From positions 62,001 to 126,000 of the forward strand of contig JAFUBX010000011.1 in the NCBI GenBank assembly GCA_017459985.1: DNA of 64,000 bases, given 5' to 3'. The first letter of the stretch is position 1. Every line of letters starts with the position of its first letter. The DNA is from Parasporobacterium sp. GTDB lineage: Bacteria > Bacillota > Clostridia > Lachnospirales > Lachnospiraceae. The position numbers and the translations under genes are program-made. Below the pieces are notes generated by a model, which was not told the origin of the DNA, made no database searches, and saw nothing but the letters and a program-made list of their open reading frames with translations. Below are positions 39,341-44,971 of the stretch, one piece after another.

Positions 39341-39592
39341 ATGAAAGATCCCGACAGGATCCCCGCGGATTTCCCTTACCGGGAAGTCTATCTGAAAGGA
39401 AAACCGAAACACGACAGATTTGACCCCTTCCGGATCCGGCATCCGGCAATGGATCTTGTTCACCGGGCGAAGATCTTCAGCCCCTTTGATGCGCTGCGGG
39501 GATTTCAGGAAGCCCTCGCCGCAGCGGGCGAACCGGATCCGGCTCTTTTCGAAGGCAGAGAGCCGGAAGAAGATCATCCCTCTTCCGGCTGA
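39341..39592 (+). CDS. small SOS-associated protein, YolD-like pattern
   Basis: 83 residues, soluble. The ATG is preceded by AAAGGAGGCGGACAGCGAC, an almost perfect Shine-Dalgarno sequence, which supports a real gene on the strand opposite to its neighbours. The core RHPAMDLVHRAKIFSPFDAL resembles the RAxxFxPFxAL motif of small proteins that accompany Y-family (DinB/UmuC-like) polymerases in Clostridia (YolD-like). A LexA box stands about 125 nt upstream, fitting SOS induction. No polymerase gene follows; instead the 3' end overlaps the convergent nuclease gene by 19 nt. Function unproven; a polymerase accessory or orphan SOS effector is the best guess. Confidence 0.7.
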   Translation: MKDPDRIPADFPYREVYLKGKPKHDRFDPFRIRHPAMDLVHRAKIFSPFDALRGFQEALAAAGEPDPALFEGREPEEDHPSSG

Positions 39593-40359
39593 ATCCGGCT
39601 GCTGCCGTCCCAATGGTCGATCACGATCCCCGGCTGTTCATTATAAATGAACACACAGAAGCTGAGCTCTCCCGGATCCTCCGGAGACAGCCCTTCCATC
39701 AGGACTCCTCTGCAGCTTCTCTCGGATCCCGCAAAAACCGGCGTGACCCGGTACAGAATATGATGGGAGCGGTGGCTGTACAGATACCGGGCGGCCTGAT
39801 TCTCATAAGGAAGCATTCCCTCAATATTGAAGGCTCTGGTGCCGGCGATCAGATTCCGGCCGGAGGTCTCTCCGCCCAGCTGCCAGCCCAGCAGATGGCA
39901 GCGATGATATAAAAACCGGTGTTCCACCAGTTCCTCCGGATACTCGGTCTGTTGATATCCGGTGGGAATGATGGTCATACGGCTCTCCTCATCATCTCTG
40001 GGATTCTCCGGAAGGTCTGCCGCGCAGAGACTGGCTGTGACGCTCCCGCACCGTCCCAGTTCATCCAAAGAAGAATACCGGACCGTTCCCTCCGGGAGAT
40101 TCCGGTCTTCCTCCGAAAACAGCGGAACATTGTGATTGACCGGCACAGCGATGGTCTTTCCGTCCCACGGCGGAAGATCCTTCAGATCCGGGCTGACGAA
40201 AATTCCCTGCACTTCTTCCGTTCCGGTAAGAAGGCGCAGGAAATAAACCGCCGTTTCTGCAAATCCTCTGGAGTTTCGCCAGGCGGAAACCCCGATTGTC
40301 CCCGCGGCAAGCGCAAGGATACATAAGATAATCAGAAAAATCCTCCGGATCCTTTTCAT
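39574..40359 (-). CDS. DNA/RNA non-specific endonuclease (EndA/NucA type)
   Basis: 261 residues: an N-terminal signal anchor (about 5-24), then a beta-beta-alpha metal nuclease domain. The catalytic segment YHRCHLLGWQLGG corresponds to the DRGH region of EndA; the Arg-Cys-His form is common in clostridial members. GRNLIAGTRAFNIEGM carries the metal-binding Asn. Such enzymes degrade extracellular DNA for uptake or nutrition. The start overlaps the stop of the molybdopterin oxidoreductase by 4 nt (ATGA), so the two are translated together, an odd functional pairing. Confidence 0.9.
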   Translation of the reverse strand: MKRIRRIFLIILCILALAAGTIGVSAWRNSRGFAETAVYFLRLLTGTEEVQGIFVSPDLKDLPPWDGKTIAVPVNHNVPLFSEEDRNLPEGTVRYSSLDELGRCGSVTASLCAADLPENPRDDEESRMTIIPTGYQQTEYPEELVEHRFLYHRCHLLGWQLGGETSGRNLIAGTRAFNIEGMLPYENQAARYLYSHRSHHILYRVTPVFAGSERSCRGVLMEGLSPEDPGELSFCVFIYNEQPGIVIDHWDGSSRIQPEEG

Positions 40360-43172
40360 GTTCCGTTACGGTTCCTTATCGTCGATTCCGGACAAGCCGC
40401 AGCAAGATCCCCGGATCCTGTCTGCGCCGCACTTACCTGGACCAGACAGGAATGCTGGGGATTGGCCCTGGCAAGGGCTGTCGGCCGGGAGGTTGTCAGG
40501 GTGTTGACGCATCCTCTGAGATCGGTCCCGTTCTGATCCGGCGTATACCAGGCCCCCTGGGGGATGCAGACCACCCCGGGCATGATCTCCCGCGTCAGAT
40601 GGGCCCGGATGCGGACCCTGCCCCTGTCATTGGATACTTCTGTCATAGTCTCCTCCCGGATCCCCCTTTCTGCGGCATCCTCCGGATGGATCCACAGACG
40701 GTGGGGTTCTTGCTTCTCCAAGACCGGATTCTGATCTCCTACCGAATGGGTCCGCCGCTTCGTATGCCATCCGATCAGCTGCAGCGGATACCTGCTCTTT
40801 TTCGGGTCCGTCACCCCTTCAAATCCGCCGGTATATCTGGGAATCCCGGAAATTTCTTCTTCCTTCATCGCATGCAGCTGTGGGGAGAAGATCTCGATCT
40901 TTCCGCTCTTTGTGGGAAATTTATGATGCTCCGGATCCCGGATCTCGCTGCAAAAAGCAATATGCTCCGGATGTTCCCGGAACCGGAATCCCCCGGCTTT
41001 CTGAAATGCTTCATACTCCGGCAGCTCCGGTTCTTCTTCTCTGGCCCGTTCGTACAGTTTCTGATACCACTCCCCGGTATTTTGAAATCCTTCTGTCGTT
41101 CCTTCCGCACCCAGCAGTTCTCCCAGTTCCCGGATCCAGTCCGCTTCGAACCGGCTTTCAAATAAGGGTTCGATCACCTGATCCGCATAGAGAAGATATT
41201 CTCCCTGCCCCCAGGGCCTGCACAGATAGGAATCTTCAAACATCCCCGTTCCCGGAAGCAGCAGATCCGCATACCGGGCACTGGCGGTCATATACAGATC
41301 TGATACAACGATGAATTCACATTTGGAAGGATCCTTCAGGATCCGGGCAGTCCGGTTTACATCGCTGTGCTGGTTCATCATGGTATTTCCCGCAAGATTA
41401 AACAGGATCTTGATATCGCTTTCCAGCTGCTCCCGTCCCCGGATATGATGCTCTTTCCGGTTCATATGTTTTCCGTCCAGGATCGCATCCGTCCAGAGAA
41501 AGGCCGGGATCATCCCCCGGTACGGATTGTCCCCTTTCGGAAAGGATGGGTATGCCGGATGGGGAAGATATCCGTTGTAGCCGGTTCCTCCGCCCCTTCG
41601 TCCCACGGTTCCCAGCATGCAGCAGAGGGCTGCAATGCTGCGGACGTTCTGTTCTCCGCCGGCGGTTCTCTGACAGCCTCTTCCCGCAAAAACAGCCGGA
41701 GGATCTGCTGCTGCCAGATCTCTGGCAAGCTTCCGGATCCTCTCCGCCGGGATCCCGGTGATCGGCTCCGCCCATTCCGGATCCTTGGGCTGTCCGTCCC
41801 GGATTCCGAACACATAATCATGGAAGGATTCCTCCTGTTCCATCCCTTCCGGCATATGAGCAGCATCAAATCCCAGACAGTACCGGTCCATAAAGGCCTG
41901 GTCACACAGTTCCTCATCCCAGAGCACATAGGCAAGACTGACCGCCAGGGCGGCATCGGTGTCCGGCCGGATCGGGATCCACTGCGCATCCAGCATTTTT
42001 CCCGTTTCATGAAAATGAGGATCAATCACGATCACCCGGGTCTTTTTCTCCTGATAGGTCTGAAGCAGCCGGAGCCATTCCCCGCAGTATTCCGTTACCA
42101 GCGGATTATTCCCCCAGAAAACAGCCAGACGGGCATCCGAAAAGGAGGACAGCGAGGATCCTGTAGAAACGGTGCCATAAAGATATGGCAGGGTATAGGT
42201 GATACAGGCGGAGCTGTAATCATTAAAATGTCCCAGATATCCGCCGGTCTTTCCCAGAAGTCTCTGCATCACCAGATCTCCGCTGATCTGGGATTCCACT
42301 CCGGAGGAATAATTCACGTACCGGCATCCCGGGCCGTATTCTGCCGTCAGGGAAGTCAGTTTCTGCGCAATCAGCTGAACCGCTTCCTTCCAGCTGATCC
42401 TCCGGAACCTTCCCTCTCCCCGCATTCCCGTTCGCAGCATAGGATAACGCAGCCTGCCGGGATGCAGATAGGTCTGCCGGTAAGCCCTTCCCCTGGCGCA
42501 GGGCGGAATGGTGATCGGGTCTTTCTGTTTTACCCCGTGAAGATCAAGGATACAGCCGGCGGTCACCTCTGCTTCCAGCCCGCATTTTCCGCCGCAGTTT
42601 CCCCGTCCCGCAGTCAGAACAACGCGACGTTTCAGCCGTTCCCGGATCTGCTCTTCCGATATGGTCTGAAAACCGCTCTTCTCGGGAAGACCGCACCGGT
42701 ATTTGGCAAGGCTTCCGGGCTGTTCCGCGCAACAGCAAAGTTCCTGAAGCAGTTCCTCTGCCCCGCGGGCCAGTTCCGAATAATAAGGGCAGGAGTCCAC
42801 GGACCGGATCCCGGAAAGCACATGCTTAAGAAGCACTCCCAGATGAAGTTTAAAAAAGGCGGCAGCCCGGTCATACTTCTGCCGTTCCAGAAGGATCAGG
42901 AAGAATTCCAGTTCCAGCCCAAGGTCATCCGCTGGCAGGTGTACATCCGCCGGTGTCAAATGTTCCTGAAAATAGCATTCGAGCACCTGAAGCGTCACCT
43001 GATTTAACAAGACCGGATCTTCTTTGTATGCGGATTCCCACAAAGGGATCTGAATGTCCGCGGCGGTCCCCTCAAACAGCCATCCGTACCACAGCCGGAT
43101 CTCCTCCCCGGCGCTTCTGTCCGGCCCCTGCCGGATCTCCTTCAGCAGATTGATCAGTGTCAGTGTTGTCAT
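40356..43172 (-). CDS. DMSO-reductase-family molybdopterin oxidoreductase with fused N-terminal TorD-like chaperone
   Basis: About 938 residues from the ATG at 43172, which has the ribosome-binding site GGAGGAGAA; the frame is open 51 codons further but without a start signal. Residues about 1-150 are helical and carry HLPADDLGLELEFF, the TorD/DmsD motif. From residue 184 a DmsA-like catalytic chain follows: NCGGKC, later PPCARGRAYRQTYLHPGRLRYPM, then FNDYSSACI at the molybdenum-ligand position, where Ser is expected, and the C-terminal cofactor domain (HPEDAAERGI, RPTALARANPQ). The first cysteine of the usual C-x3-C-x3-C FS0 motif is replaced by Gly189, leaving Cys193, Cys197 and Cys225. No Tat signal and no DmsB/DmsC genes nearby: probably a cytoplasmic stand-alone enzyme. 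Substrate unknown. Confidence 0.88.
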   Translation of the reverse strand: MTTLTLINLLKEIRQGPDRSAGEEIRLWYGWLFEGTAADIQIPLWESAYKEDPVLLNQVTLQVLECYFQEHLTPADVHLPADDLGLELEFFLILLERQKYDRAAAFFKLHLGVLLKHVLSGIRSVDSCPYYSELARGAEELLQELCCCAEQPGSLAKYRCGLPEKSGFQTISEEQIRERLKRRVVLTAGRGNCGGKCGLEAEVTAGCILDLHGVKQKDPITIPPCARGRAYRQTYLHPGRLRYPMLRTGMRGEGRFRRISWKEAVQLIAQKLTSLTAEYGPGCRYVNYSSGVESQISGDLVMQRLLGKTGGYLGHFNDYSSACITYTLPYLYGTVSTGSSLSSFSDARLAVFWGNNPLVTEYCGEWLRLLQTYQEKKTRVIVIDPHFHETGKMLDAQWIPIRPDTDAALAVSLAYVLWDEELCDQAFMDRYCLGFDAAHMPEGMEQEESFHDYVFGIRDGQPKDPEWAEPITGIPAERIRKLARDLAAADPPAVFAGRGCQRTAGGEQNVRSIAALCCMLGTVGRRGGGTGYNGYLPHPAYPSFPKGDNPYRGMIPAFLWTDAILDGKHMNRKEHHIRGREQLESDIKILFNLAGNTMMNQHSDVNRTARILKDPSKCEFIVVSDLYMTASARYADLLLPGTGMFEDSYLCRPWGQGEYLLYADQVIEPLFESRFEADWIRELGELLGAEGTTEGFQNTGEWYQKLYERAREEEPELPEYEAFQKAGGFRFREHPEHIAFCSEIRDPEHHKFPTKSGKIEIFSPQLHAMKEEEISGIPRYTGGFEGVTDPKKSRYPLQLIGWHTKRRTHSVGDQNPVLEKQEPHRLWIHPEDAAERGIREETMTEVSNDRGRVRIRAHLTREIMPGVVCIPQGAWYTPDQNGTDLRGCVNTLTTSRPTALARANPQHSCLVQVSAAQTGSGDLAAACPESTIRNRNGT

Positions 43173-43281
43173 TTCTCCTCCGGATCTTTTTGCCTGCCGG
43201 ACAGGCTTTTGCCCTTCCAGGCGGTTTTTCCCGGAACCTTTGTGCTGTTTTCCGGTTGTTTCCCGGAACATCGGTGTTTTC

Positions 43282-43582: not shown

Positions 43583-44971
43583 ATGGTCCATCAATACAAA
43601 TCCGCAGGATTGAATATTGTACTGGATACCTGCTCCGGTTCCGTGCATGTGGTAGACGACATTGCCTATGAGCTGATTCAGCTGTATCCGCAGGAGAAAG
43701 AAGAAGATATCATCCGGATCATGCTGGACCGGCACCGTGAACGCAGCGGATCCGGGCAGGAGGCACTGACAGAGGAGGATATCCGGGAATGTCTGCAGGA
43801 TATCCGGGAACTGAAATCCAGGGGGCAGCTCTTTACCCCCGACACCTTTGCGCCGGCGGCCGATACCTTCAAGGAACGCAGCGGCGGTGTGATCAAAGCG
43901 CTCTGCCTTCATATCGCCCACACCTGCAATCTCAACTGTTCCTACTGCTTCGCAAGTCAGGGCAAATACAACGGCGAGCGCTCCGTCATGAGTTATGAAG
44001 TCGGGAAACAGGCCCTTGATTTTCTGATCGCCCACTCTGGAACAAGGCACAATCTGGAGGTGGATTTCTTCGGCGGCGAGCCTTTGATGAACTGGGACGT
44101 GGTAAAGCAGCTGGTGCGCTATGCCCGCGGGATCGAAAAGGAACACAATAAGAATTTCCGGTTCACCCTCACGACCAACGGGCTTCTGATCGATGACGAC
44201 GTCATTGATTTCTGCAATCGGGAAATGAGTAATGTGGTCCTGAGTCTGGACGGAAGAAAACAGATCCATGACCGCTATCGCGTGGACTACGCCGGATGCG
44301 GCAGCTGGGAGCGGGTGGTCCCGAAATTCCAGAAATTTGTGAAGGCCCGTCAGGGCCGGAATTACTACATTCGCGGCACCTTTACCCATGCCAATCCGGA
44401 TTTCGTCAAGGATATCCGCTGCATGCTGGACCTGGGTTTTACAGAGCTGAGTATGGAGCCGGTGGTTGCCGGTCCGGATGACCCGGAGGCTCTGACCGCC
44501 GGAGATCTGGAGATCGTAAAACAGCAGTATGAGGAGCTGGCGGATCTGATGCGCCAGCGGCGCAAAGAAGGCAGGCCCTTTACCTTCTATCATTATATGA
44601 TCGACCTGTCCGGCGGTCCCTGCATCTACAAGCGGATCTCCGGCTGCGGATCCGGAACCGAATATATGGCGGTGACGCCCTGGGGAGATCTGTATCCCTG
44701 CCATCAGTTTGTCGGTGAGAGCGATTACCGGCTGGGAGATATCTGGAACGGCATTACCAATCCCGGCAGGCAGGAGGAGTTTCGTTCCTGCAATGTCTAT
44801 TCCCGTCCGGAATGTGCCGACTGCTGGGCGAAACTGTGGTGCTCCGGCGGATGCGCCGCAAATGCATTCCATGCCTCCGGCAGTATCCGGGGCATCTATC
44901 CGCCGGGATGCGAACTGTTCCGGAAACGGATCGAATGCGCCATTGCGCTGGAAGCTGAAAAGCAGCTGTAA
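43583..44971 (+). CDS. scfB: SCIFF-maturing radical SAM protein (thioether cross-link enzyme)
   Basis: 462 residues: an N-terminal peptide-recognition (RRE-like) region to about residue 95, a radical SAM core with HTCNLNCSYC (Cys115, Cys119, Cys122 binding the SAM cluster), and a C-terminal SPASM-type domain rich in cysteines (GPCIYKRISGCGSG ... YPCHQF ... CADCWAKLWCSGGC) for two more 4Fe-4S clusters. It installs the thioether cross-links in the SCIFF peptide. It lies 63 nt downstream of scfA after a terminator, and 5 nt upstream of the decarboxylase-family gene. Confidence 0.96.
   Translation: MVHQYKSAGLNIVLDTCSGSVHVVDDIAYELIQLYPQEKEEDIIRIMLDRHRERSGSGQEALTEEDIRECLQDIRELKSRGQLFTPDTFAPAADTFKERSGGVIKALCLHIAHTCNLNCSYCFASQGKYNGERSVMSYEVGKQALDFLIAHSGTRHNLEVDFFGGEPLMNWDVVKQLVRYARGIEKEHNKNFRFTLTTNGLLIDDDVIDFCNREMSNVVLSLDGRKQIHDRYRVDYAGCGSWERVVPKFQKFVKARQGRNYYIRGTFTHANPDFVKDIRCMLDLGFTELSMEPVVAGPDDPEALTAGDLEIVKQQYEELADLMRQRRKEGRPFTFYHYMIDLSGGPCIYKRISGCGSGTEYMAVTPWGDLYPCHQFVGESDYRLGDIWNGITNPGRQEEFRSCNVYSRPECADCWAKLWCSGGCAANAFHASGSIRGIYPPGCELFRKRIECAIALEAEKQL

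Follow-up and report, generated by a model that had tools for sequence, protein, structure and literature searches.

What does a TorD-family chaperone do when it is permanently joined to the enzyme it serves? Chaperones of this family have two jobs, guarding the twin-arginine translocation (Tat) signal of their client and helping with cofactor insertion, and a fusion in bacteria with no detectable Tat system separates the two. The question is raised by a gene on the minus strand at positions 40356–43172 of a 64,000-nucleotide stretch of the Parasporobacterium sp. genome (GCA_017459985.1, contig JAFUBX010000011.1, positions 62,001–126,000; hereafter the window), in which a TorD-type domain is followed by a DmsA/YnfE-type catalytic chain. 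Occurring in a bacterium in which no Tat system was detected, and again in relatives, the fusion is a natural test of the chaperone's role beyond export control. The reading we favour, and consider probable, is that the product is a cytoplasmic DmsA/YnfE-like molybdenum-bis(pyranopterin guanine dinucleotide) (Mo-bisPGD) reductase with its maturation chaperone built in.

A chaperone-family domain and an enzyme in one gene

The gene and the parts of its product discussed below are as follows.

40356..43172, minus strand: TorD–DmsA fusion gene, 938 amino acids in a single uninterrupted frame (Pfam and TIGR02166)
43173..43181, minus strand: ribosome-binding site GGAGGAGAA, immediately 5' of the ATG at 43172 (letters checked)
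42723..43172, minus strand: TorD/DmsD-family domain, about residues 1–150 (Pfam match 18–106), N-terminus short relative to DmsD
42624..42722, minus strand: linker, about residues 151–183, with no start codon inside
40431..42623, minus strand: DmsA/YnfE-type catalytic chain, residues 184–914 (TIGR02166; PF00384, PF01568)
42606..42608, minus strand: Gly189, at the first cysteine position of the FS0 iron–sulphur motif (alignment of 36 catalytic chains, letters checked)
42552..42554, minus strand: Cys207, a private cysteine (alignment, letters checked)
42213..42215, minus strand: Ser320, at the molybdenum-ligand serine position (alignment, letters checked)

That the two parts are encoded as one gene is confirmed. 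No start codon is present in residues 126–202, and within the first 260 codons the sole internal start with even a four-base Shine–Dalgarno match is the TTG at codon 72, which lies inside the TorD domain. An in-frame ATG further upstream (43325) has no recognisable ribosome-binding site, and the 51 codons between it and the ATG at 43172 show little codon-position bias. The preliminary description of the window had singled out this architecture as its most unusual; it is not unique, however, recurring in at least 11 genomes.

The same description had assigned the N-terminal ~150 residues to the TorD type, and profile searches uphold this. Residues 18–106 match Nitrate_red_del (PF02613) at 28.2 bits against a gathering cut-off of 22.2 (E = 2.2e-6), with HLPADDLGLELEFF at residues 78–91, and the family is above its cut-off in nine of the eleven fusion proteins (that of the window, seven of nine relatives and that of locus L070). 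A single-sequence phmmer search with residues 1–155 matched no TorD structure even at an E value of 10; a profile of ten fused domains, built without any separate TorD, found Salmonella DmsD (1s9u) at E = 2e-8, E. coli DmsD at about 5e-7 and TorD (1n1c) at 0.0075. Aligned by hhalign with three separate TorDs (one of them cut by a contig end), the ten fused domains scored 97.5% and the window protein with its two nearest relatives 97%. Ten columns are invariant across the ten fused domains, W45 and D82 being among the residues concerned. On these comparisons we regard the TorD identity of the fused domain, taken as a group, as sound. The E-P-x-D-H motif of DmsD, which we take to be a mark of the TorD family, keeps its P and D in all ten domains, the H being replaced by Y in eight and by D in two (including the window); as the separate TorD of the window's own genome also lacks the H, the motif is not strictly defining.

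The chain that follows is DmsA-like, as had been claimed. TIGR02166 (dmsA_ynfE) matches residues 170–914 with 806.7 bits against an NCBIfam cut-off of 777.7, and both Molybdopterin (PF00384, residues 240–685) and Molydop_binding (PF01568, residues 797–909) are found by Pfam; Molybdop_Fe4S4 stays below its cut-off in the fusion protein (15.9 against 22.7 bits). Ser320 occupies the position of the molybdenum-ligand serine of the dimethyl sulphoxide reductase group, a serine in all eleven fusions and in 34 of the 36 chains aligned.

Distribution and origin of the fusion

The window protein was used as a query against overlapping samples of 246 genomes of its order, 398 of its phylum, 299 of its family and 14 of its genus, together with seven genomes of the genus of G103, one of the relatives; the survey lay within the window's phylum, plus one exact-peptide-pattern scan of all genome contigs. 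The fusion occurs in eleven genomes: G000 (the window's own), G846, G831, G683, G920, G856, G873, G609, G143, G103 and G284. Counting G000 each time, the frequency is 7/299 in the family, 3/246 in the order, 3/398 in the phylum and 2/14 in the genus, and two of the seven genomes of the G103 genus have it. Two proteins (G846 and G831) are counted as fusions by alignment of their TorD part rather than by Pfam, and a fragment at a contig end in G1034 is not counted. The viral contigs searched yielded nothing. N-terminal domains were read only at fetched loci; a TorD census covers long frames in the phylum and order samples. In the phylum sample 79 of 398 genomes matched, with at least 138 matches in all (up to ten being scored per genome), and in the order sample 8 of 392, with 10 matches; three in each sample lay in open frames of more than 900 residues, and no further TorD in a long frame was found in these samples. 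With only 8 of 392 genomes matching, TorD is rare in the window's order.

In a tree of 36 catalytic chains from the fetched loci (BLAST scores of at least 215 bits to the window; L005, L041 and L058 dropped as redundant or partial), ten of the fusions form one clade (support 95/93) that spans three family codes. The eleventh, from G284, is placed elsewhere, near Tat-bearing DmsA (supports 91/88 and 92/77) and with a longer-branched neighbour. A single origin of all eleven was considered and set aside on an approximately unbiased test that rejects them as one clade (p = 4.4e-5), a test made after inspection of the tree on a group defined by architecture; the G284 fusion thus looks independent of the ten-member clade. 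The unfused chains nearest to that clade (G879, G806 and G693) also lack a Tat motif. At locus L007 of a distant relative (Syntrophomonadaceae), torD, a Tat-bearing dmsA, a DmsB-like ferredoxin gene and dmsC stand in a row as separate neighbours (the TorD, ferredoxin and DmsC assigned by Pfam), and judging from this gene order such an arrangement is the likely starting point of the fusion.

One member has gone further. In G683 (L087:7094-10495) a 1134-residue frame beginning with ATG encodes DmsB-like ferredoxin domains, TorD and DmsA, a triple fusion; its neighbouring gene, on the opposite strand, encodes a MobA-like domain. Elsewhere (L006:7986-10502) an unfused Tat-less DmsA relative bears a C-terminal ferredoxin-like domain (Fer4_7, 28.0 bits against a cut-off of 27), which by its domain content is a different solution for attaching an electron carrier.

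The tree also bears on the iron–sulphur motif. The window protein retains C193, C197 and C225 of the FS0 motif, but the four-cysteine motif is incomplete: the first position is glycine (Gly189 in the window) in ten of the eleven fusions. The first cysteine is present in 18 of the 25 unfused relatives and is glycine in five, and because glycine also occurs in these unfused chains the cysteine was, on this tree, lost before the fusion. Cys207 is found in all ten members of the fusion clade as against none of the other 26 chains, although, with a single origin on this tree, that amounts to one event. We considered Cys207 as a plain substitute for the first FS0 cysteine and rejected it: G873 has both cysteines and the unfused relatives with glycine at the first position lack Cys207, so that it goes with the fusion clade and not with the cysteine loss. 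The G284 fusion lacks Cys207. From the topology of the domain, Cys207 presumably sits close to a hairpin turn and may well fall short of the cluster.

Probable role of the tethered TorD domain

The enzyme is probably cytoplasmic, in line with the preliminary description: there is no signal peptide, the Tat motif [RK]R-x-F-[ILVM] sought near the N-terminus of the fusion was not found, and a search of the draft genome turned up no TatC. TatC went undetected in 13 of the 17 genomes examined, G000 included, and in nine of the eleven fusion genomes, a control search being positive for 11 of 14 genomes. PF02613 matches nothing but the fused domain in six fusion genomes (G683, G856, G873, G143, G103 and G609); one more TorD match is seen in each of G000 and G920 and two more in G284, whilst in G846 only a separate TorD passes the threshold and in G831 none is detected. 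The MoaA C-terminal domain, of molybdenum cofactor (Moco) synthesis, is present in G000 and in eight of the eleven fusion genomes in all. The separate TorD of G000 lies in a second molybdoenzyme cluster on contig C14 (L038:7689-17428), with an 882-aa enzyme, a ferredoxin, reductase-like proteins (by eye) and a 1007-aa pyrogallol-hydroxytransferase-like enzyme.

The sections of PMC10609526 concerned with maturation describe TorD assisting Mo-bisPGD insertion into TorA even when the signal peptide is absent, variants of TorD in which either signal binding or Moco insertion is impaired, and active cytoplasmic DmsAB formed from signal-less DmsA. In DmsA, according to the same sections, iron–sulphur cluster insertion must come before Moco, and a second TorD binding site on TorA has not been located in the studies they review. 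We propose that a separate torD directly upstream of dmsA, as at L007, was joined to it by loss of the stop codon, and that the Tat signal was lost, most carriers now showing no Tat system. The tethered TorD, with no signal peptide to guard, would bind its own apo-enzyme core and keep it open for the iron–sulphur cluster and Mo-bisPGD, the tether fixing a 1:1 ratio of chaperone to client at high local concentration. It had been suggested that a covalent chaperone replaces signal-peptide proofreading. A tethered chaperone remains the favoured reading, but without Tat there is nothing to proofread, which makes cofactor insertion the more likely retained role; by analogy, a tethered TorD in a Tat-less cell would fit that role. 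Action of the TorD domain in cis, in the cytoplasm, is most likely, and the substrate is probably an S- or N-oxide.

Can individual residues tell signal binding from assembly? The relevant parts of PMC5203670 report that V16 of Salmonella DmsD is required for signal binding and that W91 and G100 are required for selenate reductase assembly and not for signal binding; W87 of E. coli DmsD is cited there as key for binding the DmsA signal peptide. In the window's subclade the stretch around V16 is shortened or absent; all ten fused domains retain W87 and have Y or D at H127 (DmsD numbering, counted), and W91 and G100 are not retained. At the W91 and G100 positions the separate L007 TorD, too, differs. 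The simple notion that the fused domain keeps the assembly residues and drops those for signal binding is not borne out cleanly, W87 being kept and W91 and G100 not, and on this alignment the mapping onto DmsD gives no clean answer as to the retained role.

A number of observations weigh against a working chaperone in cis. Since W87 is retained in all ten domains, signal-peptide binding is not cleanly lost. TatC is present in two fusion genomes (G920 and G284), and its absence from G000 is no proof since that draft is 94.75% complete. The MoaA domain was not found in G683, G143 and G103 (93, 77 and 88% complete). The N-terminal part is helical in AlphaFold2 models of residues 1–190 (three sequences, mean pLDDT, the predicted local distance difference test score, 49.1) and of the full chain (four sequences, mean pLDDT 42.6), but both models are too poor to use, and Foldseek of the former against the PDB returned nothing at E ≤ 0.001. 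Other such observations point to a vestige, a decaying remnant that is tolerated and no longer needed, at least in the window's subclade. PF02613 does not reach its cut-off in the window's two nearest relatives (L085 of G846 and L086 of G831), by which measure the TorD domain is eroding in the subclade to which the window belongs. At its N-terminus the fused domain also falls about 43 residues short of DmsD (28 residues before the conserved aromatic as against about 71, by alignment count). Three Tat-less unfused relatives (G879, G806 and G693) have no detected TorD, so that such an enzyme may be able to do without one; that of G806 may be idle, as no MoaA domain was found in this genome. Lastly, in each of the three pairs compared the fused part has diverged faster than the catalytic chain. 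Between G143 and G103 the ratio of nonsynonymous to synonymous change (dN/dS) is 0.09 for TorD plus linker against 0.057 for the chain, with synonymous sites near saturation, and in two more distant pairs, where synonymous sites are saturated, it is 0.13 and 0.23 against 0.10 and 0.11. All three TorD-part values are nevertheless far below 1, and these ratios show purifying selection acting on the fused TorD part. Moreover, the ten invariant columns are maintained over ten members and the domain is retained across a clade spanning three family codes. We therefore judge a mere vestige unlikely.

Partner genes differ among the fusion loci. As the preliminary description had it, neither DmsB nor DmsC accompanies the window gene: tblastn with two DmsB queries and one DmsC query found none within the window, and none is seen by eye beside the gene. 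As a trait of the architecture, however, the lack of DmsB does not hold, for a DmsB-like gene adjoins the fusion in five of the eleven genomes (G609, G143, G103, G284 and G920) and, counting the DmsB fused in front of TorD in G683, a DmsB-like gene or domain goes with six. Between the fusion and the DmsB-like gene in G609, G103 and G920 lies a gene for a pyridine-nucleotide-type flavoprotein, and electrons probably pass in these three relatives from NAD(P)H through the flavoprotein and the DmsB-like protein to molybdenum. The stretches fetched for the window, G846, G856 and G873 showed neither gene. In G831 (L086:7501-7900) a short ferredoxin-like frame directly follows the fusion on the same strand and is perhaps a reduced DmsB.

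It is distinctly unlikely, in our estimation, that the fusion is a fully self-maturing enzyme in which TorD is a permanent part, one FS0 ligand has moved to Cys207 and a soluble reductase fed by NAD(P)H or ferredoxin has left the DmsABC plan; if it were true, cluster, chaperone and catalytic chain would have evolved together. The DmsB-like genes and domains, once fused directly before TorD, and the appearance of Cys207 on the same branch as the fusion would also suit a TorD that serves not as a chaperone but as a permanent part of the structure: a surface on which DmsB or a different electron donor docks, or a dimerisation module. This we consider very unlikely, given the four loci without a DmsB-like gene in the stretches examined and the description of NarJ/TorD proteins, in the literature consulted, as maturation factors. 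An artefact, in which an assembly join, a missed stop or a wrong start fakes a single gene out of two, is nearly excluded: although G000 is a draft in 131 contigs, the gene sits within a 228-kb contig, its linker has no start codon and independent assemblies show the same architecture, one from the same genus at 62% identity and nine others besides.

Among the neighbouring genes, that of a non-specific endonuclease (PF13930, window 39574-40359) has an ATG that overlaps the stop of the fusion (ATGA), an arrangement that suggests coupling of their translation; in G846 another gene follows the fusion. Directly upstream of the G846 fusion, on the same strand (L085:5140-7498), are flavin reductase–rubredoxin, desulfoferrodoxin and flavodiiron-type genes, which hint at a link with oxidative stress; no such neighbours are seen by eye at the window. 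In E. coli, hypochlorite induces dmsA, and methionine sulphoxide and N-oxides are substrates of DmsABC (PMC12096835). A SCIFF peptide maturase gene (TIGR03974) adjoins the fusion in the window (43583-44971), and others lie downstream of a fusion (L069:6647-8032) and 6.5 kb from an unfused relative (L091:613-2007); this proximity may be chance.

Known chaperone–enzyme pairs

DmsA and YnfE have four FS0 cysteines, whilst TorA has no FS0 cluster. The closest known counterparts of the fusion are DmsD with DmsA or YnfE in E. coli and Salmonella, to which both its chaperone (by the 1s9u profile match) and its chain (by TIGR02166) are homologous. There, however, chaperone and enzyme are two separate proteins and the enzymes have Tat signals and further subunits (PMC10609526 and PMC5203670). 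TorD, of the same chaperone family, acts also on the signal-less core of TorA (PMC10609526, same sections), but TorD and TorA are separate proteins and the enzyme, unlike the fusion, is periplasmic. NarJ and NarG resemble the fusion in that the enzyme faces the cytoplasm and the chaperone functions without export; they differ in being separate proteins, in the membrane-bound state of NarGHI and in the histidine coordination of the NarG FS0 cluster (again from those sections of PMC10609526). The torD-dmsA-dmsB-dmsC row of L007 has homologous genes in an order from which the fusion would result, but its TorD and DmsA are separate and the Tat signal and four cysteines are retained.

No natural TorD–enzyme fusion is described in the titles and abstract openings of the openly licensed literature searched, and the words 'fusion' and 'fused' are absent from the main text of a 2015 survey of the NarJ family (PMC4464133); domain databases may list such a fusion unremarked. 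New here are the DmsB and flavoprotein genes beside some fusions, the DmsB–TorD–DmsA triple fusion and the clade-private Cys207. The series from separate genes through the fusion to a triple fusion or an eroding domain illustrates how a client can absorb its chaperone, and the fixing of both partners in one chain opens the insertion complex to structural work.

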